A stretch of DNA of 64,000 bases from Pandoraea anhela (GTDB taxonomy: Bacteria; Pseudomonadota; Gammaproteobacteria; Burkholderiales; Burkholderiaceae). The stretch spans positions 62,001-126,000 of the forward strand of contig NZ_CABPSB010000014.1 in the NCBI RefSeq assembly GCF_902459655.1, read 5' to 3'. The notes under the pieces are model-generated. The model had not been told where the DNA came from. It did not search any database and was given only the letters and a program-made list of their open reading frames with translations. Below are positions 12,678 through 27,781 of this stretch, one piece after another (within the stretch, counting starts at the first letter, position 1; each line of letters starts with the position of its first letter). The translations under genes and the position numbers were made by a program.

Positions 12678-12722
12678 GTCGGATGCGATGGCGATGTCGA
12701 TTGCCTGCCGGTCCGCGTGTCG

Positions 12723-13688
12723 TTACAGGTACTCATACTTCGCATTCCCGGCGAAATCCCGCTTTTCGATGTAGCTCTTGAGGCATTCGCGGAACAGGCG
12801 CGCACTTGGCGAGAGCGGGCGGCCGCGTGTCCACACCAGCCCGACCGGGCGCACGAGGAAAGGCAGGGCGACAGGCAATATGTCCATCATGCGTGCTTTG
12901 ACGAGCCCGCTTGCGAGTGATTCCGGCATCGTGGCAATCGCATCGCTGAGTTGCAAATACGACTGAACGAGCGTTGTCGAGAGCGTTTCGATGAAATTCG
13001 CAGGTTCGGACATGCCGTTGTCCTTGAAACACTGCAAGAGTGGCTCCCGCAACAAGGAGCCTTCCGGCGGCAATACCCAGGGGAAAGCGGAAAACGCTTC
13101 CCAAGTCACGTTTTCTTTGCCCGCCAGTGGATGCCCCGCCCGCACCACAACGCTCGTGCGGTCCTGGTACAGCGTTTCCTCCTCGATGTCCGCTTCGATG
13201 GTTTTGCGTGGCAGCGTCCCCAGAATCAGTTCCACTTCGCCTGCACGCAGCGCATGCAGCAGGACATCCATCGTGGCTTCCTGAGCAACGACGGGCGTGG
13301 CCGGGGACAATCGCTTGAGTTGGACCAGTGTTCCGGGCAACAGCGACGCCGCATAAGAGGGGAGTACGCCCAGTCGCACCTTTCCCGTCACGCCATGCGA
13401 GAGCGCATGCAACTCGTCGCCGACTTGCGCGAGACCGCGCATCATCGTCTTCGCTCCCCGAATCATGCATTCACCGAACGGCGTAGGAATCACCCCTCGC
13501 ACGCTCCGTTCAAAGAGCTTCAGGCCCAGTCCCTCCTCCAACTCGGCAAGCGTCTTCGAGACGGCCGGAGTGCTGACATTCATCGCCGCCGCGACCTTGC
13601 CCACCTGACCATATTCGCCAAGCGCGACGAGCAACTGCAAGTGACGTGGCTTGAGGCCTGCGCGGATATACCAATCAAGTTGTGCCAT
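12723..13688 (-). CDS. LysR-family regulator of the adjacent catabolic operon
   Basis: 321 residues. The N-terminal HTH (about 15-75: GQVGKVAAAMNVSTPAVSKTLAELEEGLGLKLFERS) and the periplasmic-binding-fold effector domain are clear. A GbpR/CbsB-like type is suggested by the 'LKPRHLQLLVALGEYGQVGKVA' opening. It is divergent from the FAD-monooxygenase operon across about 400 bp with a three-half-site operator (13720-13758), the classical LysR arrangement. It probably activates the operon in response to the pathway substrate or an intermediate. Confidence 0.9.
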   Translation of the reverse strand: MAQLDWYIRAGLKPRHLQLLVALGEYGQVGKVAAAMNVSTPAVSKTLAELEEGLGLKLFERSVRGVIPTPFGECMIRGAKTMMRGLAQVGDELHALSHGVTGKVRLGVLPSYAASLLPGTLVQLKRLSPATPVVAQEATMDVLLHALRAGEVELILGTLPRKTIEADIEEETLYQDRTSVVVRAGHPLAGKENVTWEAFSAFPWVLPPEGSLLREPLLQCFKDNGMSEPANFIETLSTTLVQSYLQLSDAIATMPESLASGLVKARMMDILPVALPFLVRPVGLVWTRGRPLSPSARLFRECLKSYIEKRDFAGNAKYEYL

Positions 13689-14092
13689 ACCGGAAGATCG
13701 CCCTCAGGTCATCGATGATTGCACCGTAACGGTGCATTTGAATTTACTAAACGGTGCAGTCTCGGCGGGCTCGCGGCACGCACCGCGCAAGCGTCGATGC
13801 CCCGGATGCATGGCGGCCCAAAAACGGCATGAAGCCGCGGGAGAGGATCGCTCACATACGTCATTGCGGGCTTTTCGAGGCAACTTCAGAGAGTCCCGTG
13901 CTCCGATTTCAACGCTTTATTTTGAAAGATGAACCGTGGGAAGCCATTAAAGGTTAACCCGAGGTTTGCGAATGTGTTAACCGAATGATTAACACTCGGA
14001 TTTTCTTTCTCAATTGTTGGCCGCTGTCAGTTCTATACGATCCATCTCGAGTCATACAGCTTTTTGATCATAAGAAGAGAGGATCAAATCAA
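13689..14092. other. 404-bp divergent regulatory region
   Basis: I find no gene here. The right half is AT-rich and leads into the monooxygenase ribosome site (AGAGGATC at about 14077). The left end holds the operator described separately. A weak -10-like TATACG is at 14034-14039. Confidence 0.6.
13720..13758. promoter_or_regulatory. LysR operator candidate with three half sites
   Basis: TGCACCGT-A-ACGGTGCA (13720-13736) is a perfect 17-bp palindrome. A third ACGGTGCA copy at 13751-13758 lies 22 bp, two helical turns, after the second. This matches the recognition-site plus activation-site layout of LysR tetramers. It sits 32 bp upstream of the LysR start. Confidence 0.6.
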
Positions 14093-15349
14093 ATGAAAGT
14101 CATCGTTGTTGGCGGCGGCATCGGAGGCATGGCCGCCGCGCTGAGTTTGCACGCGGCCGGCATCGGCGCGTCGGTTCATGAGGCCGCGCCGAACATCGCT
14201 GCACTCGGGTTGGGGATTCATTTGCAGCCGAATGCCGTGCGTGAGTTGACCGAACTGGGTGTCGCCGATGCGCTGGATAAGCAGGCAGTCGCTATTCGCG
14301 AACTCGCGTTCTACAGCCGTCGCGGACAGCGGATCTGGAGCGAGCCGCGCGGGCGCGATGCGGGATATCGCTGGCCGCAGTACGCCATCAATCGCGGCAC
14401 GTTGCAGGTTGTCTTGCTTGAAGCGGCGAAGGCAAGACTCGGTGCCGAGCATATTCACACCGGCCATCGGCTGGTGTCGTTCGAGCAGGACGCGAACGGC
14501 GTCACGGCGCACTTCGTCGACAGTACGACAGGGGCGTCGCTGCCCCCCGTGCGCGGGGATGTGCTCGTGGCCGCCGACGGCATTCATTCGGCCGTAAGAA
14601 AGCACTATTACCCGGATCAGACGTTGCAGTTCGGCGGTCAGTTGATGTGGCGCAGCGCCGTGAAGGCGGACCGTTTTTTCGACGGCAGCACGATGATCAT
14701 CGCCGGGCATCGCAACCAGAAGCTTGTCTGCTACCCGATGCTCAAGCTGCCTGACGGGCGTCTGCTGCTCAACTGGATTGCGGAACTGGGCGCATCCGGC
14801 GACGGGCCGCCGCGTGAAGAATGGAACCGCAGGGTCGACGCATCGAAGTTCGCCGGCGCCTTCAGCGAATGGAAATTCGATTGGCTGGATGTGCCCGCTC
14901 TGATGGCCTCGCCCAGCGATGTCTTCGAATTCCCCAAAGTCGATCGCGATCCGATCGATCGGTGGACCTTCGGGCGCGTGACGATGCTGGGCGACGCGGC
15001 TCACCCGATGCATCCCGTCGGATCGCAAGCCGGATCTCAAGCCGTTGTCGACGGCCGTTCGCTGGCCTGGCACCTGGCGAAGCATCGCGACGATCCGGCC
15101 GCCGGTCTGCTTGCCTATGAAGCCGAGCGCCTGCCGCCCATGCGCGAAATCGCTTTGCAGAACCGGACGCTGGGGCCGGAGGTCGTGATGGAAATCGTCG
15201 AGGAACGCGCACCGAACGGCTTTCACCATATCCACGACGTGCTGAGCGCAGAGGACCTTCAGGCGCGCGCCGACGCCTTCAAGCACATGGCGGGGTTCGC
15301 CGTCGAGAGTCTCAACAACCGCGCGTCGTACGACGTCCCGCAGCAATGA
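14093..15349 (+). CDS. FAD-dependent aromatic monooxygenase
   Basis: 418 residues from ATG 14093. It is a class A flavoprotein hydroxylase: GxGxxG dinucleotide motif at the N terminus (VVGGGIGGMAAAL), the DG motif (VAADGIHSAVRK) and the GD motif (LGDAAHPMHPVGSQAGSQAVVDG). The GSQAGSQAVVDGRSLAWHL segment resembles PhzS and related hydroxylases. It would insert one oxygen into an aromatic or heteroaromatic ring using NAD(P)H. It is the first gene of the catabolic operon. The substrate is unknown. Confidence 0.85.
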   Translation: MKVIVVGGGIGGMAAALSLHAAGIGASVHEAAPNIAALGLGIHLQPNAVRELTELGVADALDKQAVAIRELAFYSRRGQRIWSEPRGRDAGYRWPQYAINRGTLQVVLLEAAKARLGAEHIHTGHRLVSFEQDANGVTAHFVDSTTGASLPPVRGDVLVAADGIHSAVRKHYYPDQTLQFGGQLMWRSAVKADRFFDGSTMIIAGHRNQKLVCYPMLKLPDGRLLLNWIAELGASGDGPPREEWNRRVDASKFAGAFSEWKFDWLDVPALMASPSDVFEFPKVDRDPIDRWTFGRVTMLGDAAHPMHPVGSQAGSQAVVDGRSLAWHLAKHRDDPAAGLLAYEAERLPPMREIALQNRTLGPEVVMEIVEERAPNGFHHIHDVLSAEDLQARADAFKHMAGFAVESLNNRASYDVPQQ

Positions 15350-15411
15350 GCGCCGCGACCCGCCAACGTTTGCCAGCGCACATCCATCGCCCAATCATCT
15401 ACAGAACACTC

Positions 15412-16020
15412 ATGATCGCCATGTCACCGCATTTTTCCAAAGGCAAAAGCATCGCTACGGCGTGTGCGTTGTCTCTCCTCGCAACGGCTGCCCTCGCGCA
15501 GCCGAACGGCGGCAACATCGACGCCCGCCTGAAAGAAGAGGTCATCGCACTCGGCTTCAAGGACGGCGAACTTCCCCAACTGAAGCCGGCTTTCGGCAAT
15601 TACGTGGACGCCGTTCAGGTCGGCAACATGCTCTATCTGTCGAGCGCCGCACCTCAAGCGCCCGACGGCACTTTCGTCAAAGGGCGCGTGCCTGACGAGG
15701 TGAGCCCCGAGAAGGCGATGGTGGCGGCAAAGCTCGCCTGCCTGCGCCAGATCGTGCGCATGAAGTACGTGCTGGGCGATCTGAATCGCGTGAAGCAGAT
15801 CGTCTACGTGCGCGGCAAGATTCTCTCGGCGACCGGTTACACGGACCAAACCCGGATCACCGATGCCTGCTCCGCACTCTATGTCGCCGTTTTCGGCGAC
15901 GCGGGCAAGCACGCCCGCACGACCGACGGCACCGTGGCCGCGCCGTTCGGTGTGACCGCCGAGTTCGAGACGACGGTCGAACTCAAAACCCAGACGGACG
16001 TCGTGTCGGAGAAGAAATGA
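15412..16020 (+). CDS. exported RidA/YjgF-family protein
   Basis: 202 residues from ATG 15412; ATG 15421, and 15346 (ATGA overlap with the previous stop), are alternatives. Residues about 1-30 form a signal peptide ending ALA-Q. The remainder is a Rid-fold domain (VDAVQVGNMLYLSSAAPQAPDG, later EKAMVAAKLACLRQI). Most Rid proteins are cytosolic enamine/imine deaminases without a leader, so an exported form in the same operon as a cytosolic Rid is unusual. The catalytic Arg of RidA is not evident at its usual place, so a binding role is possible. Confidence 0.75.
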   Translation: MIAMSPHFSKGKSIATACALSLLATAALAQPNGGNIDARLKEEVIALGFKDGELPQLKPAFGNYVDAVQVGNMLYLSSAAPQAPDGTFVKGRVPDEVSPEKAMVAAKLACLRQIVRMKYVLGDLNRVKQIVYVRGKILSATGYTDQTRITDACSALYVAVFGDAGKHARTTDGTVAAPFGVTAEFETTVELKTQTDVVSEKK

Positions 16021-17171
16021 TCAAACCTCTTGGCCGTGTCATGGCCGCCGCAACCTGCCTGTTGCTGGTCGCGACGGCGCATGGCGCGTCAGGTCAGCAG
16101 GCCGTGCGGATCGGATTTCAGGCCGGATTGAGTGGGCCCGCGGCCGCCGATGGCGCGACCGCGCTCAAGGCGGCCAGACTGGCCGTCGAGCAAATCAATG
16201 CGGATGGCGGCGTCGAAGGGCGTCCGCTGGAGCTCGTGGTGGCCGACGATCAGGGCGAACTGGAGCGCGCCGTGCTGGGTGCGAGCCGACTCGTCAGTGA
16301 GGGCGTGAAAGCCGTTGTCTCGGCCAGCTTTTCCGGTCCCGCACGGGCAGCCGCACCGGTGTTTCAGCGCGCCGGGATCCCGTTTGTCGCTTCGGTGGCG
16401 TTTGCACCGGAGATCACGCACATCGGCAACGCCATGTTTCGCATGACGAGCGTGGGCGAGGTACAGGGCAGGGCGGCCGCGGCGCTCGTGGGCGAGCGTT
16501 TGCGGAAAAAACGGGCGGTCGTGCTGACGATCAAGACGGACTTCGGCAAGACGCTGGCCGCCGGGTTTCGCGACGCTGCCCCGCGCTTCGGCATCGACAT
16601 CGTGGGTGAGTACGAGTACGCGCCGGCCGACCGGCAGTTCGGTCCGTTGATCGCCAGCCTCAAGAGCAAATCGCCGGATGTGGTGTACGTCACCGGGTTT
16701 TATTTCACCGCCGGCCCGTTCGTCGCGCAGTTGCGCAACGCTGGGGTGAAGGCTCAGGTCGTGGGGGCCGAGGCGCTCAGCTCGCAGCAGTTCATCGACA
16801 TTGCGGGCAGCGCTGCCGAGGGGACCGTCATTACCAACGTGATCGATTGGGGATCGGACGATCCCGCGACACAGCGTTTTCTGACCCACTACAAAGCGGC
16901 GACCGGCGCCAATGCGGAAGCGGTGGCGGTGTCGACCTACACGGCGGTGACGCTGGTCGCCAGTGCGATCCGTCAGGGGCGCTCCGATTCGCCTGCGCGC
17001 ATTCGCAGCGAACTGGAGACGATCGACCAGACGACGGTGATCGGCCGCGTGAGTTTCAACGCGCTGCATGAGGTGAAAAAAGCGTTCCCGTTGAGCATTG
17101 TGCGTGATCGGCGCTGGCAAGGATTTGGCCAAATCGACGATCCGGAACTTCTCGCGCCGCCAACCCGATGA
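16017..17171 (+). CDS. branched-chain-amino-acid-type ABC substrate-binding protein
   Basis: 384 residues with a signal peptide (cleavage near GASGQQ). The start overlaps the previous stop (ATGA). It has the Peripla_BP_6 (LivJ-like) pattern: VRIGFQAGLSGPAAADG, AVEQINADGGVEGRPLELV, and the inter-lobe Ser-rich loop SASFSGPARAAAPVF. Such receptors in catabolic operons often bind aromatic acids rather than leucine. It feeds the LivHMGF-like proteins encoded next. Confidence 0.88.
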   Translation: MIKPLGRVMAAATCLLLVATAHGASGQQAVRIGFQAGLSGPAAADGATALKAARLAVEQINADGGVEGRPLELVVADDQGELERAVLGASRLVSEGVKAVVSASFSGPARAAAPVFQRAGIPFVASVAFAPEITHIGNAMFRMTSVGEVQGRAAAALVGERLRKKRAVVLTIKTDFGKTLAAGFRDAAPRFGIDIVGEYEYAPADRQFGPLIASLKSKSPDVVYVTGFYFTAGPFVAQLRNAGVKAQVVGAEALSSQQFIDIAGSAAEGTVITNVIDWGSDDPATQRFLTHYKAATGANAEAVAVSTYTAVTLVASAIRQGRSDSPARIRSELETIDQTTVIGRVSFNALHEVKKAFPLSIVRDRRWQGFGQIDDPELLAPPTR

Positions 17172-17196
17172 ACCGCATTTTCTCTTAAGGACAGTC

Positions 17197-18135
17197 ATGA
17201 ATCTGCTGCTCAATCTCACGGCGCAAGGGCTGATCAACGGGGCGATCTATGCGCTGATTGCCGTCGGACTGGCGCTGGTGTTCGGGATGCTGAGAATTCT
17301 GCACATCGCGCACGCCGGGCTTTTCACCCTGGGCGGTTACGCCGGGCTCGTCGTCACCAATGCGACGGGGTCTTTCGCGCTGGGCCTCGCGCTCGCAATG
17401 CTCGTCTCGTCGGTGTGCGGCGTGTTGATGTACCGGTTCTGTTACGAGCCGATTCTCAGCCAGCCGGCGTACGTACCGCTGATCGCATCGGTCGGCATGT
17501 TTCTGGCGATCGGCGAGTTGCTCCGTCTCGTCTTCGGTGACAAGGGCATGGCCTACCTTGTGCCGCCACTGCCGGGGGGAATCGATATCGTCGGTATTCA
17601 CTTGCGCTACGCGGAGCTCGCCGTTGTCGTGCTGGCGTGTGTGCTGTTCAGTGCACTCGCATGGTTTTCCAGCCGTTCCCGAATGGGGATGGCCTGGCGA
17701 GCCACGATCAGCGAGCCGCGTATGGCCGAATCGTGCGGTGTCGATCTGCGGCACGTGCGGTATCTCACGTTTGCCATCGGTTCCGCGTTTGCGGCCGTCG
17801 CCGGCGTGCTCGTCAGTGTTCTGAACAATGTCGTCGATCCCACCATGGGTGCAGTGCCCAGCTACAAGGCGCTCGCGATCATCGTGCTCGGCGGCCTCGG
17901 CAACATGGGCGGGACGCTCGCCGCCGCGCTGTTGCTCGGCGTCCTGGAGGCCTTCGGTGCGACATACCTGTCGGCGTGGATCGATCGTGACAGCCTGGCT
18001 TTCGCCGCGATGCTCTGCGTGCTGCTGGTACGCCCCGAAGGTCTGTTTGCACGCGCCTCCGGCCAGGGGGCTGTGTTCACGCTAATGCAATTGAAAGGAG
18101 CCGCCAAATGGGCGCTTATGAAACGGCCCTCGTGA
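17197..18135 (+). CDS. Liv-type ABC permease, LivH-like
   Basis: 312 residues from ATG 17197 (AAGGA upstream; an earlier in-frame start would overlap the receptor gene). It is a hydrophobic protein with about 8 membrane segments and family landmarks GLINGAIYALIAVGLALVFGMLRILHIAH and IVLGGLGNMGGTL. It forms the importer channel with the LivM-like protein, whose gene overlaps it by 28 bp. Confidence 0.9.
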   Translation: MNLLLNLTAQGLINGAIYALIAVGLALVFGMLRILHIAHAGLFTLGGYAGLVVTNATGSFALGLALAMLVSSVCGVLMYRFCYEPILSQPAYVPLIASVGMFLAIGELLRLVFGDKGMAYLVPPLPGGIDIVGIHLRYAELAVVVLACVLFSALAWFSSRSRMGMAWRATISEPRMAESCGVDLRHVRYLTFAIGSAFAAVAGVLVSVLNNVVDPTMGAVPSYKALAIIVLGGLGNMGGTLAAALLLGVLEAFGATYLSAWIDRDSLAFAAMLCVLLVRPEGLFARASGQGAVFTLMQLKGAAKWALMKRPS

Positions 18136-18962
18136 TTCTGATCGGGGTGCACATCGTGCTGGCGGTCAGTCTCAATCTGATATCGGGCCTTTGCGGTCAG
18201 GTCAGTCTCGGTCACGCCGCCTTCTTCGGAATCGGCGCCTATACCACCGCCGTGCTCTCGAAACTCGGGTTCGCTATTTGGGTCACGTTACCGGCTTCGA
18301 TGACGTTCGCCGGTATTTGCGGCGCGATCGTCGGGTTTTGCAGTCTGCGCGTGCGAGACGATTTTCTGGCGATTGCCACCATGGCCGCAGGCTTTCTGTT
18401 TCTCGGGATCGTGCGCACCAGCGAGGCGCTGGGCGGCGAGTTGGGGCTGTCCAGGATTCCCGACGCGGGCTTCGGCGACGGATTCGTCTATTTCGTCATC
18501 GTGTGCACCGCGCTTGTGGTCGGTTTTTGCGTCTATATCAAGCGTAGCTGGCTGGGATATGCGTTCAGTGCGGTCGGTGCGGACGAGATCGCGTCGCGCA
18601 GCATCGGGATCAACAGCGCGGACTTCAAGCTGACGGCCTTCGGCATCGGCACGGCGCTGGCCGGTGTGGCGGGGTGCCTGTATGCGTACTTTCTCGGCAC
18701 GGTGGACCCGCAATCGTTCGGCTTTCCGGTCTCGATCATGATCCTCGCCATGGTGGTCATCGGCGGCATGGGCTCGATCGGCGGTAGCGTGCTCGCCGCC
18801 GTTCTGCTCACCTTGTTGCCCGAGTGGCTGCGCTTCGTCAGCAGTTACAAGCTGCTGGTCTTCGGGGGACTGCTGTTCGTGATGATGCGCTTCTTGCCGC
18901 GCGGAATCGCACCCTGTCTGCGTCTGGATGCATGGCGTTTGCGTACAGGGAGAGCGGCATGA
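18108..18962 (+). CDS. Liv-type ABC permease, LivM-like
   Basis: 284 residues. The ribosome site AAAGGAG lies inside the end of the previous gene, and the overlap implies translational coupling. LivM landmarks are present: AVSLNLISGLCGQVSLGHAAFFGIGAY and VVIGGMGSIGGSVLAA. About 8-9 membrane segments. It is the second channel half of the importer. Confidence 0.9.
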   Translation: MGAYETALVILIGVHIVLAVSLNLISGLCGQVSLGHAAFFGIGAYTTAVLSKLGFAIWVTLPASMTFAGICGAIVGFCSLRVRDDFLAIATMAAGFLFLGIVRTSEALGGELGLSRIPDAGFGDGFVYFVIVCTALVVGFCVYIKRSWLGYAFSAVGADEIASRSIGINSADFKLTAFGIGTALAGVAGCLYAYFLGTVDPQSFGFPVSIMILAMVVIGGMGSIGGSVLAAVLLTLLPEWLRFVSSYKLLVFGGLLFVMMRFLPRGIAPCLRLDAWRLRTGRAA

Positions 18963-19732
18963 CCGTGGAATCTCCCCTCCTGTCGATAACCGACGTCGGC
19001 GTGCGTTTCGGCGGCATCGCCGCAGTCGACCGGGTCTCGCTCGACGTGAGCGAAGGCGAACTCGTGGGGCTGCTCGGGCCGAACGGCGCCGGCAAGACGA
19101 CCTTTCTGCGGCTTATCGCAGGCGTTGTCGCGCCGACCTCCGGGAACATCGTTTTCCAGCGCGAGCCCATCAATCGCCTCGGCACTGCTGCCCGTTCGCA
19201 CCGCGGCATTGCCATGTCGCACCAGATCGTGCGCCCGTTTCGCAACATGTCGTTGCTGGACAACGTGGTGCTGGCGTGCGGGTTCGCGATCACTCGGACC
19301 CCGTGGTCGGCGCTGAAACACATCCGGCGGTCGCCACTGAAGGACACCGCGATGGCGCTGCTCGACCGGGTCGGCATCGCGGGGCTGGCCGACGCCATGC
19401 CGTCGTCGCAGCCGCTGGGCGTACTCAAACGCCTCGAAGTCGCGCGTGCGCTCGCAACGCGTCCGAACATGCTGCTGCTCGACGAGCCGCTCGCCGGGCT
19501 GAGCCATCGGGAGGCGGGGCGGCTCGCCGATCTGATTGCACAACTCAATGCCGACGGCATGACGATCGTGCTGATCGAGCACAACCTCTCCGAGGTCATG
19601 CGCATCTGTCCTCGGGTCGTCATGCTCAATAACGGCAGCAAGATGGCCGACGGCCCCGCCGCAGATGTCATGCGCGATCCGACGGTGATCGAAGCCTATC
19701 TGGGAGAAGGAGCGACGCATGCTCACCATTGA
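18959..19732 (+). CDS. Liv-type ABC ATPase, LivG-like, with degenerate signature motif
   Basis: 257 residues; ATG 18959 overlaps the previous stop. Walker A is GPNGAGKTT (40-48) and Walker B is MLLLDEPLAG. The switch His lies in LIEHNLSEV. The ABC signature, normally LAYGQQRRLEIARAL in LivG, reads PLGVLKRLEVARAL here, so the S/G-G-Q core is missing. The partner LivF keeps LSGGE, so one of the two composite ATP sites would be non-canonical. It energises the Liv-type importer. Confidence 0.88.
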   Translation: MTVESPLLSITDVGVRFGGIAAVDRVSLDVSEGELVGLLGPNGAGKTTFLRLIAGVVAPTSGNIVFQREPINRLGTAARSHRGIAMSHQIVRPFRNMSLLDNVVLACGFAITRTPWSALKHIRRSPLKDTAMALLDRVGIAGLADAMPSSQPLGVLKRLEVARALATRPNMLLLDEPLAGLSHREAGRLADLIAQLNADGMTIVLIEHNLSEVMRICPRVVMLNNGSKMADGPAADVMRDPTVIEAYLGEGATHAHH

Positions 19733-20480
19733 TTCGCTGGTCTGCGGTTACGGGGCGGCCTCGGTTGTCCACGGCTTGTCCATGGAAGTCAAGGCGGGCG
19801 AGACCGTCGCGCTGATCGGCGCCAACGGCGCGGGAAAAACGTCGACGATCCAGTGCATTGCGGGACATCTCGATGTGCGCGCCGGCTCGATCCGGCTCGA
19901 CGGCAAAGACATTTCCACCATGCCACCCCGTCACCGGGTGCTCGAAGGGATTGCGCTCTCGCCGGAAGGCCGCCGGTTATTCAGCGACATGACGGTCAGG
20001 GAAAACCTCATCGTGGGGGGATACAGCAGGCCCCGCAGTCATTGCTCGCGCAATCTGGAGCGAGTCCTGGATCTGTTCCCCCGGCTGGGTGAGCGTTTGA
20101 CGTCGATCACCCGGACGCTGTCCGGTGGCGAACAGCAGATGGTCTCCATCGGGCGAGCGCTGATGGCCGAGCCGAGACTGTTGCTCATCGACGAGCTGTC
20201 TCTCGGGTTGACCCCGAAGAATGTCTTCATTTGTTATGAAGCGCTGTTTCGCTTGCGCACCGAAGGCATCGCCGTCGTGCTCGTCGAGCAGAACCTGTCG
20301 AATGCGCTCGCATTTTCCGAGCGTGCCTATGTACTCGATTCGGGGCGTCTGGTGTGGGGCGGCAAGTCGTCCGTCGCGCGCGATAACCCCGACCTCGTCG
20401 CGTCGATTCTCGGTATGGGCGAGTCGTCCAAACCACACGACGATATTCCTTCAGGAGTGATGCATGCCGCGCGCCACTGA
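19719..20480 (+). CDS. Liv-type ABC ATPase, LivF-like
   Basis: 253 residues, overlapping the LivG-like gene by 14 bp. Walker A is GANGAGKTS, the intact signature is LSGGEQQMVSIGRAL, and the Walker B region is LLLIDELSLGL (ELS in place of the usual EPS). It completes a five-protein importer (receptor, two permeases, two ATPases) embedded in the catabolic operon, which therefore carries its own uptake system. Confidence 0.9.
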   Translation: MLTIDSLVCGYGAASVVHGLSMEVKAGETVALIGANGAGKTSTIQCIAGHLDVRAGSIRLDGKDISTMPPRHRVLEGIALSPEGRRLFSDMTVRENLIVGGYSRPRSHCSRNLERVLDLFPRLGERLTSITRTLSGGEQQMVSIGRALMAEPRLLLIDELSLGLTPKNVFICYEALFRLRTEGIAVVLVEQNLSNALAFSERAYVLDSGRLVWGGKSSVARDNPDLVASILGMGESSKPHDDIPSGVMHAARH

Positions 20481-21420
20481 TGTTCTCTATGTCCGGTATC
20501 AAGTGACCGACCTCGCGATTGCCGAGCGGTTTCTCGCAGATTTCGGCATGTCCCGCGCGCAACCCGGCGACGGCAGCCGGTTGTACATGCGAGGCACCGG
20601 CGATGCCCCCTTCCTTTACGAAGCGGTGCTTGGCGACGCGTGCCGGTTTCTGGGCGCGGGATTACGGGTGCAAACGCGCACCGATCTCGAACAGCTCGCG
20701 GCCTTGCCCGATTCGGGACCGATCGAGCAGGTTGACGATGTGCCGGGCAAAGGCGAGCGAGTGCGCATGCGGATGCCGGACGGCTTCGAGATCGACGCCG
20801 TCTACGGCGGCACGCCGGCGCCGCTGCCGACATCGCACAGCACCTTGCACGACGGCAATACGCTGCCCTTCAACACCGCCCATGCCAAGCCGCGCGTCAA
20901 TCGGGCCGTGCGTGTGGCCGCCGGCCCCGTGCCGGTCAGGCGGTTGGGGCACTTCGTTTTGCACGTACTGGATCACGACGTGTCGGTCGAGTGGCTGCAA
21001 ACGCGCTTCGGGCTCATGGCATCCGATTTTCTCGCCCCGCCCGATCAACCCGATCGGGTCGTCGGCAGCTTTCTGAGAATCGACGCCGGCGAACAGCTCG
21101 TCGATCACCACTGCATGCTCGTGCTCGGGGCGCAGAAGGCCGGCGTGCATCACTGCTCGTTTGAAGTCGAAGACCTCGATGCGGTGATGGCGGGGCATGA
21201 CCATTTGACGGCACAAGGGTACGAACTCGATTGCGGCGTCGGACGCCACCTGCTCGGGAGCCAGATTTTCGATTATTGGCGCGATCCGTTCGGGTTCCGG
21301 ATCGAGCATTACACCGATGGCGACGTGGTCAACAACGCGCACCGCGCAACGATTTTCTCGGGAACGGCGGACGAAACGACGCAATGGGGAGCCAAACCTC
21401 CTCGCGAGTTCTTTAGCTAA
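20464..21420 (+). CDS. extradiol-type ring-cleavage dioxygenase (VOC superfamily)
   Basis: 318 residues, overlapping the LivF end by 17 bp. It has two VOC modules, an N-terminal one (about 5-125) and a C-terminal catalytic one (about 158-290). The metal facial triad is visible as H163 (GHFVLHV), H229/H230 (VHHCSFEV) and E281 (RIEHYTDGD), with spacing close to type I extradiol dioxygenases. It would open a catechol- or aminophenol-like ring with O2 and Fe(II). Given its operon position it probably acts on the monooxygenase product. The exact ring is unknown. Confidence 0.82.
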   Translation: MPRATDVLYVRYQVTDLAIAERFLADFGMSRAQPGDGSRLYMRGTGDAPFLYEAVLGDACRFLGAGLRVQTRTDLEQLAALPDSGPIEQVDDVPGKGERVRMRMPDGFEIDAVYGGTPAPLPTSHSTLHDGNTLPFNTAHAKPRVNRAVRVAAGPVPVRRLGHFVLHVLDHDVSVEWLQTRFGLMASDFLAPPDQPDRVVGSFLRIDAGEQLVDHHCMLVLGAQKAGVHHCSFEVEDLDAVMAGHDHLTAQGYELDCGVGRHLLGSQIFDYWRDPFGFRIEHYTDGDVVNNAHRATIFSGTADETTQWGAKPPREFFS

Positions 21421-21452
21421 ACATGCACAGCGACATCAAGAGGCAAAACAGT

Positions 21453-21869
21453 ATGAGCATTGAAAAGATCACCAGCCCCGAAGTCTCGGAGCCGGCGCCG
21501 GGCACCTGGTCGAACTGCCTGAAAGTGGGCGACACCGTCTACATCGCGGGGCTAACCGCGCGCGACAAGCAATTGAATCCCGTCGGCGGCAACGAATACG
21601 AGCAGGCCAAGCTGATCTTCACGCGTATCGGCCATTTGATCGAGGCTGCGGGCGGTTCGTTGAACGACATCGTCAAGATCAACATTTTCCTCACTCGCAT
21701 CGAGCACCGCGAGGAGGTCTGGCGTGCGCGCCGCGAGTGCTTCACGGGTGAGTTTCCCGTGGCGACGCTGGTGGAGGTGAGCCAACTGGCGCAGCCCGAA
21801 ATTCTCGTCGAGATCGAAGCGCTCGGCGTGTTGAATCAGGGCGGCCGACCGGCTCGGGCCCGGCACTGA
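21453..21869 (+). CDS. cytosolic RidA-family deaminase-like protein
   Basis: 138 residues from ATG 21453 with AAGAGG upstream; ATG 21423 is an alternative. It is a typical Rid-length protein with VGDTVYIAGLTARD and an FPVATLVEVSQL ending that includes the conserved beta-strand region near the active site. Rid-family members act as 2-aminomuconate deaminases or generic imine hydrolases. In an operon with an extradiol dioxygenase and an ALDH, a 2-aminomuconate-type deaminase role is plausible. That role is inference. Confidence 0.82.
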   Translation: MSIEKITSPEVSEPAPGTWSNCLKVGDTVYIAGLTARDKQLNPVGGNEYEQAKLIFTRIGHLIEAAGGSLNDIVKINIFLTRIEHREEVWRARRECFTGEFPVATLVEVSQLAQPEILVEIEALGVLNQGGRPARARH

Positions 21870-21886
21870 CAGGAGCGTCAATTCAA

Positions 21887-22606
21887 ATGAATCAGTATGT
21901 GGTTGAGCCGGCAGCACTGACAACAGTCCCGGTCGTCGGTAGCGACGCCGTTTTTCCGGTGCGCCGTGTGTATTGTATCGGCCGCAATTACGCGGATCAC
22001 GCCCTTGAGATGGGGGTGGACCCCCGCGAGGAACCGCCGTTCTTCTTCTGCAAGCCGACCGATACCGTGGTATCGAACGCGCACGGCCCGGTCGAAGTCG
22101 CGTTTCCGCCGCTGACCGAGAACTTTCACCATGAAGTCGAGTTGGTGGTTGCCATTGGCGAGGGCGGCAAGGACATCGCCGTCGAGCATGCTGCCCGCCA
22201 TGTCTGGGGATATGCGGTCGGTGTCGATCTGACCCGCCGCGATCTGCAACTCGCCATGCGCCATAGCGGCAAGCCGTGGGAAATCGGTAAGACCTTCGAG
22301 CGTTGTGCGCCGATCGGTCGCATCACCCCGAAAGCGGCCGTCGGTGCATTGACCTCGGGGAAGATCGCCTTGACGGTTGACGGCGAACTTCGTCAGGAAA
22401 GCGATTTGTCCAAGCTGATCTGGCCGGTCGACGACATCATCGCGATCCTCTCGACTTACTTCACGCTCGCACCGGGCGATCTGATTTTTACCGGTACACC
22501 GCATGGCGTGAATCGTCTCGAGGCCGGCAACGCGCTGCACGCCACGTTCGACGGGCTCGACGACCTGCACATCAACATCGTGGGCGCCCACAAGGAGCTC
22601 GCATGA
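21887..22606 (+). CDS. FAH-family hydrolase, fumarylpyruvate-hydrolase-like
   Basis: 239 residues, starting 17 bp after the Rid gene. The metal ligands E83, E85 (HHEVELVVAIGEGG) and D114 (GVDLTRRDLQ) of the FAH fold are present. The N-terminal RRVYCIGRNYADHALEMG and PPFFFCKPTD segments resemble fumarylpyruvate hydrolases of the gentisate pathway. It would cleave a 2,4-diketo acid to pyruvate and a second acid. An oxalocrotonate-decarboxylase-like activity is the alternative within this family. Confidence 0.85.
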   Translation: MNQYVVEPAALTTVPVVGSDAVFPVRRVYCIGRNYADHALEMGVDPREEPPFFFCKPTDTVVSNAHGPVEVAFPPLTENFHHEVELVVAIGEGGKDIAVEHAARHVWGYAVGVDLTRRDLQLAMRHSGKPWEIGKTFERCAPIGRITPKAAVGALTSGKIALTVDGELRQESDLSKLIWPVDDIIAILSTYFTLAPGDLIFTGTPHGVNRLEAGNALHATFDGLDDLHINIVGAHKELA

Positions 22607-23394
22607 CGACGACGTTCGACTCAAGGGCAGGACATCACGACGCCCGCGCCGCCAATCCGGCATTCGTGCTCAGCGAGGCGACCCGGGAAAAACTGATGCG
22701 CGTGGGGACGGCAAACGTCGCCAACGCATTGCTCAAGCGCGGGTTTCGCAATGTCTATCTGCTGGGCGTAATACCGATTTCGTCCGGTCAGACGCAACTC
22801 GTCGGCCCGGCATACACGTTGCGCTTCATGCCTGCACGTGAAGACATCGACACGATGGCGAACTACAGCAGTTCCGAGAATCTGCATCGCCGTGCCATCG
22901 AGGAGTGTCCGCCCGGCCATGTCCTCGTGATCGATAGCGGGAGATGCCTGCGCGCGGCGTCGGCCGGCGACATGATGGCGTTGCGCATGCGGCATCGCGG
23001 CGTGGCGGGCGTGGTCACGGACGGGGGGTTTCGCGACACTCCGGCAATCCGCCGCACCGGTCTGCCCGCCTATCAAGTTCGGTCCGCACCGCCCGCAACA
23101 CCCATCGCCATGCATCCCGTGGAACTCAACGGGCCGGCCGCCTGTGCCGGGGTGGCGATTTATCCCGGGGATGTGATGGTCGGCGACAGCGAGGGCGTGG
23201 TGGCGATTCCCTGGCATCTGGTCGACGAAATCGCTCACGAGGCGGACGACGCCGTGGCTTATGAAATGTTTGCCGAACAGCACCTGGTCCGAGGCCGATC
23301 GATCCTCGGCTTGTTCCCTGCAACGGCGGAAAGCCGTCAGGAATACGAGCAATGGGTCGCGGCCGGAAGACCGCCCTTGGAGACTGACAAATGA
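22603..23394 (+). CDS. RraA-like / 4-hydroxy-4-methyl-2-oxoglutarate-aldolase-family protein
   Basis: 263 residues; the start overlaps the FAH stop (ATGA). The family core AGDMMALRMRHRGVAGVVTDGGFRD carries R144 and D145, the pair needed for pyruvate-enolate chemistry in HMG/CHA aldolases. GVAIYPGDVMVGDSEGVV follows. With the ring-cleavage genes, a class II pyruvate aldolase acting late in the pathway is more likely than the RNase-E-inhibitor role. Its tail (about 225-263) is longer than in E. coli RraA. Confidence 0.82.
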   Translation: MTTTFDSRAGHHDARAANPAFVLSEATREKLMRVGTANVANALLKRGFRNVYLLGVIPISSGQTQLVGPAYTLRFMPAREDIDTMANYSSSENLHRRAIEECPPGHVLVIDSGRCLRAASAGDMMALRMRHRGVAGVVTDGGFRDTPAIRRTGLPAYQVRSAPPATPIAMHPVELNGPAACAGVAIYPGDVMVGDSEGVVAIPWHLVDEIAHEADDAVAYEMFAEQHLVRGRSILGLFPATAESRQEYEQWVAAGRPPLETDK

Positions 23395-23816
23395 CGGGCC
23401 CCAGTGAAACGATGATGAAGACGCTCGAAGTCCTGATTCAGACGAGCGCCCTCGACCCCGCTGCATGGATCGATTTTCCGGAGTATGGCTTCCGCCAGTA
23501 CTTCCTCTGGAAAAACGCCGACACCGGCGCGAGCATTGCGCTCCTGGAGTACGAGAAAGGAGGGCGCATTCCGGTCAAGCATTCGCATGCGTCGAATCAG
23601 TTCATGTACTGCCTGGAAGGTGACTACGAATACACGGACTCAGGCTTGCGTCTTACGCCGGGGGCTTTTTACATGAACCCCAAAGACCATCCGCATGGAC
23701 CGACGCTGGCGCACGAGCGCAGCGTGCTGATCGAGATTTACGACGGCCCCCACTACTACGAGAAGCCGGTTTTCCACACGGACGAATCGATCGGTGGATT
23801 TCTGTCGAAGTCCTGA
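23391..23816 (+). CDS. cupin-domain protein
   Basis: 141 residues; ATGA overlap with the previous gene. It has a single cupin barrel with the first motif IPVKHSHASNQFMYCLEGDYEY (His ligands and Glu) and the second motif around PKDHPHGPT. Metal-binding cupins of this size include dioxygenases, isomerases and dehydratases. Its place in the operon suggests an enzyme of the pathway, but I cannot assign the reaction. Confidence 0.75.
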   Translation: MTGPSETMMKTLEVLIQTSALDPAAWIDFPEYGFRQYFLWKNADTGASIALLEYEKGGRIPVKHSHASNQFMYCLEGDYEYTDSGLRLTPGAFYMNPKDHPHGPTLAHERSVLIEIYDGPHYYEKPVFHTDESIGGFLSKS

Positions 23817-23963
23817 CGCACTGCATCGGCCGGCCACGGAAGCGGCGGTGCACGGGCCCGGGGCGACATTGGATGACCTGGGGCGGTATAGCGCGGCATC
23901 GCGTGGCATAGCGCGACCTGTCGAAAAAACGTAGATGGCGATGATTCGCCGAAGGAATGAAAA

Positions 23964-25493
23964 ATGTTTGAAACCTCCAACGTTCTCGAAATGTTCCGGA
24001 TACTCCCGGTTCACCCCGGAGCCTGCGTCGGGCCGGACGGTTGGTCGGATACGACCGGCCGCGTGGTGTTCGACGCCGTCAATCCGGCCGACGGCACCGT
24101 GACGGCCCGGGTCGCGGCCGCCACCCATGCCGACTACGACGCCATCATCGACGTGGCAACGCGTGCTCAGACGCGCTGGCGCATGGTGCCCCCGCCGCGC
24201 CGCGGCGAGCTTGTCGCGCGAATCGGCGAGCTGGCGCAGCAGCATCTGGAAGGACTTGCCGCCGTGGTCGCGCTCGATACCGGAAAGTCGCTGATGGAGG
24301 CGCGCAGCGAAGTCGGCGAGTTGATCGACATGGCCATGATGGCGGCCGGACAGTCGCGCATGTTGTACGGCTTCACGCAGCAATCGCAGCGGGCCAAGCA
24401 CCGTATGTATGACCAGTGGCTCCCGCTGGGCGTGGTCGGGGTCATTTCGGCATACAACTTTCCTGCGGCCGTTTGGGCCCAGAACGGCTTTCTCGCCGCC
24501 ATCGGCGGTAACACCGTGATCTGGAAGCCCAGCCCCAAGGTGCCGCTCACCGCGCTTGCGTTGCAGGCGTTGTGCAACCAGGCGATGAAGGAGATGGATT
24601 TCGAGGGCGTCTTTACGCTGTTCCTGCCGCAAGACAACGAGGTTGCGGAGCGTCTGGTGGCGGATACGCGTGTGGCGCTGGTGTCGTTTACCGGATCGAC
24701 AGCGGTTGGGAAAAGGGTGGCAAACATTGTCGGCAGCACGTTGGGACGACGCTATCTGCTCGAATGCTCCGGTAACAACGGTTGCATCGTCGACGAGACT
24801 GCAGACCTGAAGCTGGCCGCGCGCAGCATCACGTTCGGCGCCGTGGGCACCACGGGACAGCGCTGCACAAGCACGCGTCGCGTGATCGCACAGCGAGGTA
24901 TCGCGAATGAACTCGTGGAGTTGCTCAAGCGCGCCTTCGAGCAGATCACCGTTGGCGATCCGCGGGAACCGGGCGTCGTGGTCGGCCCGCTGATCGATGC
25001 TGCGGCCGTGGGCCACTTCGAGCAAGCGGTGGCAGACGCCGTGGCACAAGGGGGAACTGTGGTGTCCGGCGGCAAACGCATCGAGCGTCCCGGGAATTAT
25101 GTCGAGCCGACCTTGATCGTGGGCGCGCAGCCCGGTTGGCAGTGCGTGCAGCACGAGACCTTCGCTCCGATCGTCTACGTGCTGGTCTACGACACCCTTG
25201 ACGAGGCGATCGAGATTCACAACGGTGTGCCGCAAGGGCTTGCCTCGGGCATTCACAGCACGAATCTCTCGAATATCGAACTGTTCCTGTCCGCTCAGGG
25301 GAGTGACTGCGGAATCGCGAAAGTCAACATGGGCACCACGGGCGCCGACATCGGCGCTGCGTTCGGTGGCGAGAAAGAAACGGGGGGAGGGCGCACCGCC
25401 GGATCCGACGCGTGGAAGGGGTACATGCGGCGTCAGAGTGTGTGCGTGAACTGGGGCGGCGAGTCTCCCTGGGATCAGCGCATCAAGCTGTAA
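23964..25493 (+). CDS. aldehyde dehydrogenase, ALDH7-like
   Basis: 509 residues, 147 bp after the cupin gene. The NAD(P) site and active site are present: VGVISAYNFPAAVWAQNG, FTGSTAVGKRV, and catalytic C301 in GTTGQRCTS, which is the ALDH7 signature. The glutamate motif reads ECSGNNG instead of the usual ELGGNN. ALDH7 enzymes oxidise 2-aminoadipic semialdehyde and related compounds. In this operon it would oxidise an aldehyde formed by ring cleavage. The substrate is unknown. Confidence 0.85.
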   Translation: MFETSNVLEMFRILPVHPGACVGPDGWSDTTGRVVFDAVNPADGTVTARVAAATHADYDAIIDVATRAQTRWRMVPPPRRGELVARIGELAQQHLEGLAAVVALDTGKSLMEARSEVGELIDMAMMAAGQSRMLYGFTQQSQRAKHRMYDQWLPLGVVGVISAYNFPAAVWAQNGFLAAIGGNTVIWKPSPKVPLTALALQALCNQAMKEMDFEGVFTLFLPQDNEVAERLVADTRVALVSFTGSTAVGKRVANIVGSTLGRRYLLECSGNNGCIVDETADLKLAARSITFGAVGTTGQRCTSTRRVIAQRGIANELVELLKRAFEQITVGDPREPGVVVGPLIDAAAVGHFEQAVADAVAQGGTVVSGGKRIERPGNYVEPTLIVGAQPGWQCVQHETFAPIVYVLVYDTLDEAIEIHNGVPQGLASGIHSTNLSNIELFLSAQGSDCGIAKVNMGTTGADIGAAFGGEKETGGGRTAGSDAWKGYMRRQSVCVNWGGESPWDQRIKL

Positions 25494-25657
25494 CGGCATA
25501 GGGCGTCTGCAAGGACGCCCTATCGCCGGCAATCGAGGAAATGCATTCACGCTCAAAGTGGCGATATCACCCATAAGTATTTAGTACTACTTAATTTAAA
25601 TAAAACAACTGGTCACAGGTCTTGGGGCGCACGTTTATTAACGGAGTGAGGTGTCAA

Positions 25658-26812
25658 ATGAAAGTCGCGTGTAAGTCGTCGATGTATAAGGGGATGGCTC
25701 GATTGATGGCCATTTCGGCGGTGACGGGGGCATGGTCTGTGCAAGGGCATGCACAGAGCGTGGAGCTGTACGGCATTCTCTCGGGCGGGCCGCAGTATGT
25801 CAGCAATGCGGGGGGAAAGAAGCTGTTCGGTGTTGCGAGCGGGGGCATGCAGCTTCCCCGATGGGGACTGCGCGGCTCGGAAGACCTGGGGGGTGGCACG
25901 CGTGCGATCTTTACGCTGGAGAACGGCTTCTCGCTGACCAATGGCTCGTTGTCGGCGGGGCGTATGTTCGGGCGTCAGGCATTTGTCGGGCTGTCGAACA
26001 CCGGTTGGGGCACGGTGACGCTGGGCCGGCAATATGACGAAATGTCGCAAATGCTGGCGTGGTCGGAGTCGGGCAATCTCTTTGCCGGTTTTGGAACACG
26101 TATCGGCGATGCCGACAACATCTATAACACGCAACGCTTCAACAACGCGGTTCGCTATGCATCGCCGGTGATTGGCGGCCTTAACTTCGCCGCCAGCTAC
26201 GCGTTCTCCAATTCGACGGGCTTCTCGAACAACAACGCGTACAGTGCGGGGGTGAACTACGTGGTGAATGGGCTGAAGCTGGGCGTGGCATTCTCCGAGT
26301 TCAATCGTCGCTCCAATGCGCAGCCGGCGAACCTCACCAACGGCGCGGTTGACGATAGTGCATATGGCTTTTCGTCCCCGTTCACCGTGAGTCGTGCCAA
26401 TCCTTCGGCAGGCACGAGCGTGCAGCGCATTCTCGGCGCCGGTGCGAACTACGATTTCGGTTTCGTGAATGCGACGCTCGGGTACTCCAATATCCTGTTC
26501 AACTACAGCGACGGGACCGGCCTGAGACTTCAGAATACCGAATTGGCGTTGAGCAGACGCATTACGCCTCAACTCCTGTTGGGGACGGCGTACATCTATA
26601 CCTGGGGGCAGTACGCCGACGGCACTCGGCCCAAGTACCATCAGGTGAACCTGTCCGCAATCTATTCGTTGAGCAAGCGCACGGATCTGTTCGTCGTCGG
26701 CATCTATCAACGCGCCGCCGGCGATGCGAAATTCGCGCAAATCTACTCGACGATCGCCTCGTCGACGGCAACGCAGATGCTTTACCAGGTGGGGATTCGA
26801 CACCGATTCTAA
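25658..26812 (+). CDS. Gram-negative trimeric porin
   Basis: 384 residues from ATG 25658 (GGAGTGAGG upstream). It has a signal peptide ending GHAQ, then the porin opening SVELYGILSGG, RWGLRGSEDLGGGTRAIFTLENGF, FGRQAFVGL and WGTVTLGRQYDEM, and a terminal RHRF. These are hallmarks of the 16-strand Burkholderia-type porins. It closes the catabolic cluster and is probably the outer-membrane entry route for its substrate. An AT-rich 160-bp gap before it may carry its own promoter. Confidence 0.92.
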   Translation: MKVACKSSMYKGMARLMAISAVTGAWSVQGHAQSVELYGILSGGPQYVSNAGGKKLFGVASGGMQLPRWGLRGSEDLGGGTRAIFTLENGFSLTNGSLSAGRMFGRQAFVGLSNTGWGTVTLGRQYDEMSQMLAWSESGNLFAGFGTRIGDADNIYNTQRFNNAVRYASPVIGGLNFAASYAFSNSTGFSNNNAYSAGVNYVVNGLKLGVAFSEFNRRSNAQPANLTNGAVDDSAYGFSSPFTVSRANPSAGTSVQRILGAGANYDFGFVNATLGYSNILFNYSDGTGLRLQNTELALSRRITPQLLLGTAYIYTWGQYADGTRPKYHQVNLSAIYSLSKRTDLFVVGIYQRAAGDAKFAQIYSTIASSTATQMLYQVGIRHRF

Positions 26813-27161
26813 GGAGACGGGAACCTGGGCATGTCGCGCTGCCGCGCGGCGTGTCCGGTTCGAGTGTCCGGATCAGTGGACAATCCTCGCCTGACGTGCG
26901 CGAACGAATGTTCGCTTCGCCGGCTTCGCGCGGTATGGCGTTGCGCCGCGCCTTGGCATGATGCCGAGACGCGATAAGCGGGATACCGGGCCGATGGGCT
27001 CGCCCGCCTTGCCGCCTCGACACCCACTGTGCTGAGCGTTGATCGTAGCGGCTAAGGCGTTTGGCGAACTTACGAAGGCTGACGGTATCCGGCAGCAGTC
27101 ATGGACTTGCACTCGCGTCAGATCGTCGGCTGGGCTATGCATGCAAGAGAACGCATCGAAT
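26813..27161. other. gene-free gap containing an IS scrap
   Basis: No complete gene is visible. The only recognisable content is the transposase fragment near 27089-27163. The rest shows no family character on either strand. Confidence 0.5.
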
Positions 27162-27746: not shown

Positions 27747-27781
27747 ATGAAGGCCTACCCGAGTGGGCAACCGTGGCATGC

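Follow-up and report, generated by a model that had tools for sequence, protein, structure and literature searches.

What does a bacterium gain from a compact operon that joins a flavin monooxygenase and an extradiol dioxygenase to a complete importer and porin, and is this combination of genes peculiar to it? The question is raised by a gene cassette in the window, that is, the whole stretch of 64,000 nucleotides of Pandoraea anhela DNA analysed here (contig NZ_CABPSB010000014.1, positions 62,001 to 126,000). As delineated by open reading frames and family searches, the cassette comprises a divergent LysR gene on the minus strand and 14 plus-strand genes at 14093-26812. Judged from the gene families, it very probably enables the uptake and opening of a ring-shaped compound in a soil-type bacterium. 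Clusters like it occur in more than one phylum, and together they are best seen as a variant of the extradiol (meta-cleavage) pathway that has apparently not been characterised. Our preferred reading, to which we assign a probability of roughly 0.5, is that the operon serves the extradiol catabolism of an aromatic or heteroaromatic acid that is hydroxylated and probably contains nitrogen. Horizontal exchange of the operon is part of this reading.

Genes of the cassette

The protein families were assigned with Pfam and NCBIfam; seven of the proteins were also compared with solved structures. The features are as follows.

12723-13688, minus strand: LysR-type regulator (Pfam HTH_1 and LysR_substrate; best NCBIfam model PcaQ, 207 bits, below the cut-off of 303.8)
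13720-13736, no strand assigned: 17-nucleotide near-perfect palindrome TGCACCGTAACGGTGCA, candidate operator in the LysR/monooxygenase intergenic region
14093-15349, plus strand: PhzS-like FAD monooxygenase, putative ring hydroxylase (NF005720/PRK07538, 532 bits, above the cut-off of 400)
15415-16020, plus strand, in a reading frame opening at 15346: exported-looking RidA/YjgF-fold protein (Pfam YjgF_endoribonc; N-terminus signal-like by eye)
16017-17171, plus strand: LivJ-type substrate-binding protein (Peripla_BP_6; LivJ-type model 185.7 bits, below the cut-off of 477; Leu/Ile/Val-binding homologues)
17194-18135, plus strand, start inferred: LivH-type permease (Pfam BPD_transp_2; UrtB and LivH models below their cut-offs; 71% identical to the gene in Variovorax locus L040)
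18108-18962, plus strand: LivM-type permease (Pfam BPD_transp_2; best model LivM, below cut-off)
18965-19732, plus strand, start inferred: LivG-type ATPase (Pfam ABC_tran and BCA_ABC_TP_C; best model LivG, below cut-off; 68% identical to the L040 gene)
19719-20480, plus strand: LivF-type ATPase (Pfam ABC_tran; best model LivF, below cut-off)
20464-21420, plus strand: VOC-superfamily (type I) extradiol dioxygenase (Pfam Glyoxalase; HpaD model 66.5 bits, below the cut-off of 321.4)
21453-21869, plus strand: cytosolic RidA-family protein, presumed enamine/imine deaminase (Pfam Ribonuc_L-PSP)
21887-22606, plus strand: FAH-superfamily hydrolase of the fumarylpyruvate-hydrolase/acylpyruvase type (288 bits to 6j5y, 240 bits to 4maq)
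22603-23394, plus strand: RraA-type aldolase/decarboxylase (NF006093/PRK08245, 282.5 bits, above the cut-off of 208)
23391-23816, plus strand: small cupin, proposed dienedioate hydratase (Pfam Cupin_7)
23964-25493, plus strand: ALDH7-family aldehyde dehydrogenase (piperidine-6-carboxylate dehydrogenase model, 606.9 bits)
25622-26812, plus strand: outer-membrane porin (Pfam Porin_4, 128.7 bits; NCBIfam PorB, 53 bits, far below the cut-off of 480)

The 14 plus-strand genes are spaced by -28 to +147 bp, most of them overlapping or lying at most 65 bp apart, and the widest gaps are 147 bp upstream of ALDH7 and 128 bp upstream of the porin. The starts chosen for LivH (17194) and LivG (18965) are probably correct. 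An original prediction, made from the sequence alone, had described a self-contained operon for ring degradation, equipped with an importer, a porin and a regulator, and the gene families bear this out, every member of the set that it named (FAD hydroxylase, VOC, RidA, FAH, RraA, cupin, ALDH7, Liv, porin and LysR) being found where it had been placed. Two details have to be amended: the most likely start of the monooxygenase is 14093 and not 13985, and the single RidA listed is indeed present in the cytosolic form, but is accompanied by the exported-looking RidA-fold protein at 15415-16020, which has relatives in L040 (49%) and in locus L157 (61%).

The ring-cleaving enzyme is the best defined of the set. 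Residues H163, H215, H216, H229, H230, H262, Y271 and E281 of the VOC protein are invariant in 10 of 10 aligned sequences, and we take them to represent the His/His/Glu metal site (H163, H229/H230, E281) and the catalytic His/Tyr residues (H215/H216, H262, Y271). The structural model (10 sequences; mean predicted local distance difference test score, pLDDT, of 76) is nearest to 3b59, catechol 2,3-dioxygenases and HPCD, with template-modelling (TM) scores of ca 0.70-0.74, 3b59 being a VOC protein of unstated function. Residues and model together are those of a two-domain type I extradiol dioxygenase. For the monooxygenase, the best solved-structure matches are 2rgj and 3c96, which we take to be PhzS entries.

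The remaining enzymes can be placed with varying precision. The FAH protein is of the fumarylpyruvate-hydrolase type by sequence, as had been predicted, 4maq being a putative fumarylpyruvate hydrolase; since other clusters of the same kind hold other FAH subfamilies, it may be a local replacement. The RraA protein keeps a D-X20-R-D motif, found in 14 of 14 rows of the comparison below and presumably the active-site motif of RraA-type 4-hydroxy-4-methyl-2-oxoglutarate/4-carboxy-4-hydroxy-2-oxoadipate (HMG/CHA) aldolases. Two CHA aldolase models score below their cut-offs (75.8 against 179 and 60.1 against 304.5 bits), which counts against this class. ALDH7 misses the cut-off for L-piperidine-6-carboxylate dehydrogenase (NF050084, 730 bits), and a second copy, 47% identical, is found elsewhere in the genome. 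The cytosolic RidA has no NCBIfam match at E <= 1e-15, nor has the cupin at 0.001. Reading the substrate from the binding protein was considered, but LivJ resembles generic Leu/Ile/Val binders only.

Conservation of the gene set

We now turn to the distribution of the cassette. An alignment scan with the VOC protein over a collection of genomes from 84,980 species gave at least 598 pattern matches, of which 259 encode a relative, and the best 80 loci were kept. In the top nine (L040-L048) the VOC protein is 45-67% identical to that of the window, while in the other 71 the identity is at most 45%. The nine include six loci with the cupin, seven with RraA, six with RidA, four with ALDH7, six with the hydroxylase HpaB and two with a PhzS-like monooxygenase; none of these six genes occurs in any of the 71, with thresholds for both counts that were set after seeing the data. 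FAH-superfamily genes are common to both groups (5/9 and 52/71), and their presence is therefore uninformative.

In a VOC tree of 43 rows (36 of the 80 loci and seven others, midpoint-rooted only), a clade of 16 rows with support 100/99 extends from Burkholderiales to Streptomyces. We refer to its clusters as type I, further members of which were drawn from three plasmid searches and a sample of additional genomes. Over the 16 rows, the cupin is present in 13, RraA in 14, cytosolic RidA in 12 and FAH in 11, and clusters with this set occur in both Pseudomonadota and Actinomycetota. The search for conserved synteny that had been proposed as a check thus recovers much the same set, clustered, in distant bacteria, and for this reason the cassette is more than a chance assembly. 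Gene absences in L041, L043 and L046 mean little, as these are short contigs. L041 (1-9722) is a contig of 9.7 kb filed as a Klebsiella pneumoniae metagenome-assembled genome; its cassette genes are otherwise seen in other groups, and it is possibly misbinned.

The cupin is 87% identical to the window copy in Variovorax (L040), 80-85% in L041, L042, L139 and L157, and 71-80% in the actinobacterial, rhizobial and Gemmobacter copies and in genome G1048, which is well above the conservation of the VOC protein across the relatives. The rows that carry it span Streptomyces, Rhodococcus, Pseudomonas and Rhizobiales. Relatives were found in 17 of 398 genomes of the family (E <= 1e-20), where only the genome studied here and G541 have the type I form and the rest are 52-57% identical, in one of 369 genomes of the class (E <= 1e-20; the present one), in three of 399 of the order (E <= 1e-45; the present one included), in two of 398 of the phylum (E <= 1e-45; the present one and G1048) and in four of 316 of the class of G1152 (E <= 1e-10; G1152 included). 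These prevalence figures are lower bounds, because the type I members come from one genome scan, plasmid searches and a genome sample.

Exchanged modules

The type I clusters differ in their hydroxylases, apparently also in their aldehyde oxidisers, and in their importers. The PhzS-like hydroxylase occurs in four of the 16 rows (the window, L040, L157 and L047), and an HpaB that is at least 66% identical in ten; none of the 16 has both, L048 has an HpaB of 31% identity and L036 has no hydroxylase in view. HpaB is a phenol ortho-hydroxylase, which fits the formation of a diol. The window groups with L040 and L157 in a clade (100/100) that lies within rows bearing HpaB, and on this midpoint-rooted tree at least one exchange of the hydroxylase must have taken place. 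That sister clusters use HpaB also leaves a role in phenazine degradation, considered for the likeness to PhzS, unsupported.

A similar picture emerges for the presumed aldehyde-oxidising step. ALDH7 is found in ten of the 16 rows (in L047 ca 10 kb upstream) and the molybdenum hydroxylase XdhL2 in four, with no overlap between the two. In G1048, which is 100% complete by estimate and consists of 50 contigs, XdhL2 is present and there is no ALDH7 at E <= 1e-100; the Gemmobacter plasmid likewise has no ALDH7 at this threshold, in a search that covered the plasmid only. The distribution suggests well, without proving, that XdhL2 replaces ALDH7 in the sister clusters, in which case both would oxidise the ring-cleavage aldehyde.

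The importers are of several kinds: Liv as in the window and, by eye or annotation, an RbsA-type ABC importer, a TRAP-like one and a gene annotated as cytosine permease, which lies in the Streptomyces clusters and has a 71% identical homologue in L045. In the Variovorax cluster (L160 14903-17062 and L040 1-4781), an extra P450, ferredoxin, reductase and short-chain dehydrogenase/reductase (SDR) are seen by eye between LivJ and the monooxygenase, which suggests an additional first oxidation.

Proposed pathway

The families can be arranged in the following order. The porin and LivJHMGF would import the substrate, and the PhzS-like monooxygenase would convert it to a vicinal diol, a step that may also remove a carboxylate. 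The VOC dioxygenase, for which the family and the active-site residues are observed, would open the ring beside the diol to give a semialdehyde acid, and ALDH7 would oxidise the aldehyde to a dienedioate, a role with which its apparent replacement by XdhL2 is consistent. The cupin may then hydrate the dienedioate, and RraA, judging from its motif and from the precedent discussed next, may split the resulting 4-hydroxy-2-oxo acid in a retro-aldol reaction to pyruvate and a second fragment. From their families, RidA would deaminate an enamine or imine with release of ammonia, and FAH would hydrolyse or decarboxylate an acylpyruvate-like intermediate, finishing side products.

It is the hydration step that calls for comment. 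In a meta pathway the dienoate has to be hydrated before the aldolase can act, and among the cassette proteins no classical enzymes for hydration and aldol cleavage were recognised. The genes for RraA and the cupin overlap by 4 bp. In the reconstituted lumichrome pathway of Nocardioides simplex, LumE gives a pyrone that is opened by LumW, the cupin-annotated LumY (16 kDa) hydrates a dienedioate and LumX, a 26-kDa retro-aldolase, forms pyruvate and acetoacetate (PMC12746152). On account of these three points, we propose, by analogy, that the cupin is the hydratase and RraA the retro-aldolase. The cupin, which had been given no role in the original prediction, may thus find one through LumY, the likeness being one of annotation class and size, compared by description.

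The structural comparison of the cupin bears on an alternative. All 23 copies (13 type I, nine from the type II clusters described below and one in L159) have the motif HxHASNQ...HGP, and the matches of the model (7 sequences; mean pLDDT 79) are acetylacetone dioxygenase, dihydroxyacetophenone dioxygenase and KdgF, with TM scores of ca 0.55-0.63 (query-normalised) at 17-22% identity. The cupin could accordingly be imagined as a second oxygenase, cleaving a dicarbonyl fragment in the manner of acetylacetone or 2,4'-dihydroxyacetophenone dioxygenase, with RraA only decarboxylating oxaloacetate. The first three fold matches are 3bal (acetylacetone dioxygenase), 5bpx and 4p9g (dihydroxyacetophenone dioxygenase), and the HxH...Q...H set in 23/23 copies would suit such an enzyme. 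These matches stand, however, at TM scores of ca 0.6 and 17-20% identity, KdgF, presumably not a dioxygenase, follows close behind, and LumY provides a precedent for hydration. We therefore regard the oxygenase as the unlikely option and retain the hydratase.

If the proposed pathway is correct, a cupin family that is so far an orphan would acquire a function, and the operon would illustrate how one meta-cleavage core can be combined with different hydroxylases, aldehyde oxidisers and importers. A marker gene for a catabolic trait in genomes would be gained as well.

Nature of the substrate

In our judgement the substrate rather probably contains nitrogen, a hydroxy-N-heteroaromatic compound or an aminophenol being likelier than a nitrogen-free ring. 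Support comes from the cytosolic RidA in 12 of the 16 rows and from the relatives of the molybdenum enzymes, which include quinoline 2-oxidoreductase and 6-hydroxypseudooxynicotine dehydrogenase, and also from the gene annotated as cytosine permease in the Streptomyces clusters and its homologue in L045. The RidA proteins of the clusters also form a group of their own: all 22 have Ala, Cys or Ser where the aligned 6l8p has Arg, and all 22 share an SGMTAR-like motif (with A/S, M/L/F and A/S changes, and TAR or TSR), while L159 has SDMTAR.

One way to interpret this is a meta variant of the 2-aminophenol or 3-hydroxyanthranilate routes, in which the VOC protein opens an aminophenol, ALDH7 gives 2-aminomuconate, RidA deaminates it, FAH decarboxylates, and a hydratase and an aldolase complete the sequence. 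The order of functions, from dioxygenase through aldehyde dehydrogenase and RidA deaminase to FAH, matches, and a similar set has been proposed from transcripts for 2,4-diaminotoluene via 4-aminocatechol (PMC8854710). AmnE, the 2-aminomuconate deaminase of the 2-aminophenol pathway, is itself of the RidA family, but it is reported to have Arg117 among its conserved cleft residues (PMC6742747), and the cluster RidA proteins lack an Arg at what we infer, via 6l8p, to be the equivalent position. Furthermore, the VOC ring opener belongs to another family than the 2-aminophenol enzyme, the sole FAH is fumarylpyruvate-hydrolase-like and no DmpG-type aldolase was recognised. This variant is the least probable of the alternatives considered here.

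Another option is a nitrogen-free route, in which an extradiol, dehydrogenase, hydratase and aldolase sequence acts on a plain phenolic acid (homoprotocatechuate- or protocatechuate-4,5-like) and RidA serves as damage control for imines. An HpaB-type hydroxylase in ten of 16 sister rows would fit this, as would HpaD being, weakly, the nearest NCBIfam model to the VOC protein and PcaQ, below its cut-off, the best model for the LysR protein; moreover, regulon predictions for Betaproteobacteria place RidA genes within the benzoate and catechol regulons (PMC6449761). It accords less well with the cytosolic RidA in 12/16 type I clusters and in 9/9 proteobacterial type II stretches read, with the special RidA group, whose lack of the Arg in 22/22 fits a pathway enzyme better, and with the presence in some clusters of the gene annotated as cytosine permease and of the molybdenum enzyme XdhL1. 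A nitrogen-free substrate is on balance improbable.

Returning to the nitrogen-bearing substrate, a more specific form of the proposal, which we put forward tentatively and at less than even odds, is a new cross-phylum pathway for an N-heteroaromatic compound (a hydroxypyridine-like acid). Its front ends (PhzS-like, HpaB or molybdenum hydroxylase) would be interchangeable, and its core would consist of the VOC dioxygenase, a cupin hydratase in place of the usual one, RraA and an Arg-less RidA that releases the ring nitrogen.

It is important to point out that a number of observations weigh against the interpretation as a whole, the predicted regulon membership of RidA genes quoted above among them. 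As regards gene content, L044 has HpaB and VOC only, with no cupin genome-wide (E <= 1e-20), and L157 has neither a cytosolic RidA nor an FAH in the stretch read, the exported RidA-fold protein being present. In the type II stretches read, the cupin and RidA are present but RraA and ALDH7 are not, and at L159 9964-14635 a cupin (65%) and a short-looking RidA surround an ABC importer that by eye is of the spermidine/putrescine type, with no VOC or RraA seen; cupin and RraA are therefore not an obligate pair. The top fold matches of the cupin are dioxygenases and not hydratases. As regards nitrogen, the best PDB matches are CO dehydrogenase for XdhL2 and 4-hydroxybenzoyl-CoA reductase for XdhL1, and the scores of the gene annotated as cytosine permease fall far short of the cut-offs for NCS1 and for cytosine permeases. 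Of the four loci with XdhL2, only two are informative, because L041 and L043 are short contigs. If XdhL2 merely oxidises an aldehyde, it carries no information on an N-heterocycle, and the use of the molybdenum hydroxylase as proof of such a ring is weakened by its apparent replacement of ALDH7. Homarine or another N-methyl substrate was also considered, on account of a gene beside L047 that looks PurU-like by eye, and a literature search on this gave nothing useful.

Island and genomic slot

The original prediction had called the cassette an island, and this is supported: it is an insertion specific to the lineage. It is flanked by glmS (10845-12677) and a gene of the major facilitator superfamily (MFS; 27782-29188, minus strand), and these two are 15,110 bp apart here, compared to 41, 103, 564 and 633 bp in four relatives. 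Among the 32 genomes of the genus set, 22 (this one included) have both flanks on one contig, with gaps from 41 bp (G027) to 30,279 bp (G019), and the other ten gave no usable pair. In G005 the gap is 564 bp and the flanks align with 88-89% DNA identity. The gene content of the gap differs among the five relatives read (L169, L170, L171, L173 and L174), which means that the slot is variable. The GC content does not mark the island (0.621, compared to 0.637 to the left and 0.623 to the right), a direct-repeat scan of 12600-27850 gave short partial repeats only, with no clear flanking repeats, and no integrase was noticed at the island ends. The cupin type of the cassette occurs in this genome only, one of the 32 (E <= 1e-20); at the same threshold, among the 31 genus genomes listed, ten others have a relative of 52-55% identity and 20 have none, and the 32nd, G028, has no cupin relative.

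Some features of the surroundings may be recorded here. There are two copies of glmS in the genome (10845-12677 and G000:C2:187149-188975), which are 66% identical to each other, and the copy that flanks the island is 87-96% identical to the same-slot copies in relatives. A small IPT/TIG-domain gene at 27162-27686 (Pfam TIG, 22 bits, cut-off 20.9) adjoins the island, and genes that resemble it by eye recur several times in the same slot at L170 2443-8252.

LysR relatives that are 50-51% identical adjoin the cassettes in L160 and L157. The palindrome beside the regulator gene was expected to match 0.23 times at up to three mismatches, and the two matches found are the same single site on both strands. 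As a pattern with three free positions, it was found in none of the loci compared from other genomes, only in L001 of the same genome; the case for an operator is therefore weak, and a regulator site common to the cassettes, which was also considered, gains no support.

Comparison with known systems

No published cluster with this gene set was found in the open-licence literature, and papers outside it could hold one. The prediction of an undescribed pathway holds to this extent; the cassette is, however, not a one-off but a member of a cross-phylum family.

The lumichrome cluster resembles the cassette in its extradiol dioxygenase (LumE), cupin-annotated LumY, retro-aldolase LumX and transport genes, and further in the FAH protein LumV, for which no role was found there, and the xanthine-oxidase-like LumJ (PMC12746152). 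LumE has 46 kDa, whereas the VOC protein here has 318 residues, and the lumichrome route uses a Rieske dioxygenase, a P450, a thiamine pyrophosphate (TPP) decarboxylase and a pyrone hydrolase, RidA being unmentioned in the main text. The 15 cassette genes include no Rieske dioxygenase, amidases, TPP decarboxylase or pyrone hydrolase, and the lumichrome cluster as such was rejected, with its cupin/aldolase logic kept.

For 4-hydroxypyridine in Arthrobacter sp. IN13, the kpi cluster has been described with a flavin monooxygenase that gives a pyridine vicinal diol, extradiol opening, a proposed final FAH (KpiD) and a permease. Its ring opener KpiC is, in contrast, of the amidohydrolase family, and the main text, searched for RidA and cupin, contains neither (PMC7356986). 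No amidohydrolase family is represented among the 15 cassette genes, in which the ring opener is the VOC protein.

The amn and nba routes for 2-aminophenol and 3-hydroxyanthranilate share with the cassette the logical order of dioxygenase, aldehyde dehydrogenase, RidA-family deaminase and FAH-type decarboxylase. Their ring opener is LigB-type or 3-HAO-type, whereas that of the cassette is a VOC protein; the RidA group and aldolase also differ, and the cassette has the extra cupin. The original prediction had set the cassette apart from these routes, and the VOC opener, the Arg-less RidA and the lack of a recognised classical hydratase/aldolase pair agree with this. In the 2,4-diaminotoluene route of Pseudomonas capeferrum TDA1, HpaD opens 4-aminocatechol, HpaE dehydrogenates, and a RidA-type aminomuconate deaminase and HpcE follow, but the route is a transcript-based proposal, the deaminase gene lies away from hpaDE and cupins go unmentioned in the paper (PMC8854710).

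To be compared as well are the type II clusters (L120, L121 and L141-L147; cupin, Ldh, RidA, FAH, SDR, flavin monooxygenase, VOC and amidohydrolase), which have the cupin family, the RidA group and FAH in common with the cassette. Their cupin is 52-57% identical to the window copy in the family genomes and 47-50% in plasmids. The monooxygenase is mostly MhpA-like, the VOC protein is distant (24-34% where found), and Ldh, SDR and amidohydrolase stand instead of RraA and ALDH7. Within the genus, the type II cupin was found in ten of 32 genomes, and the two contexts read, L141 9018-13906 and L142 9025-13923, have cupin, Ldh, RidA, FAH, VOC and amidohydrolase. At L180 1999-14471, an actinobacterial type II cluster lies among genes that by eye encode a nitrilase, a maleate isomerase, a gentisate dioxygenase and a cyclase-family hydrolase.

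Finally, protocatechuate 4,5-cleavage (Lig) proceeds through extradiol cleavage, aldehyde oxidation, hydration and the RraA-type aldolase LigK. Compared to this system, the cassette has VOC for LigAB and ALDH7 for LigC, LigI and LigJ were not recognised in it, and the cupin is proposed for LigJ, while the logic of the steps and the RraA-type aldolase are the same.

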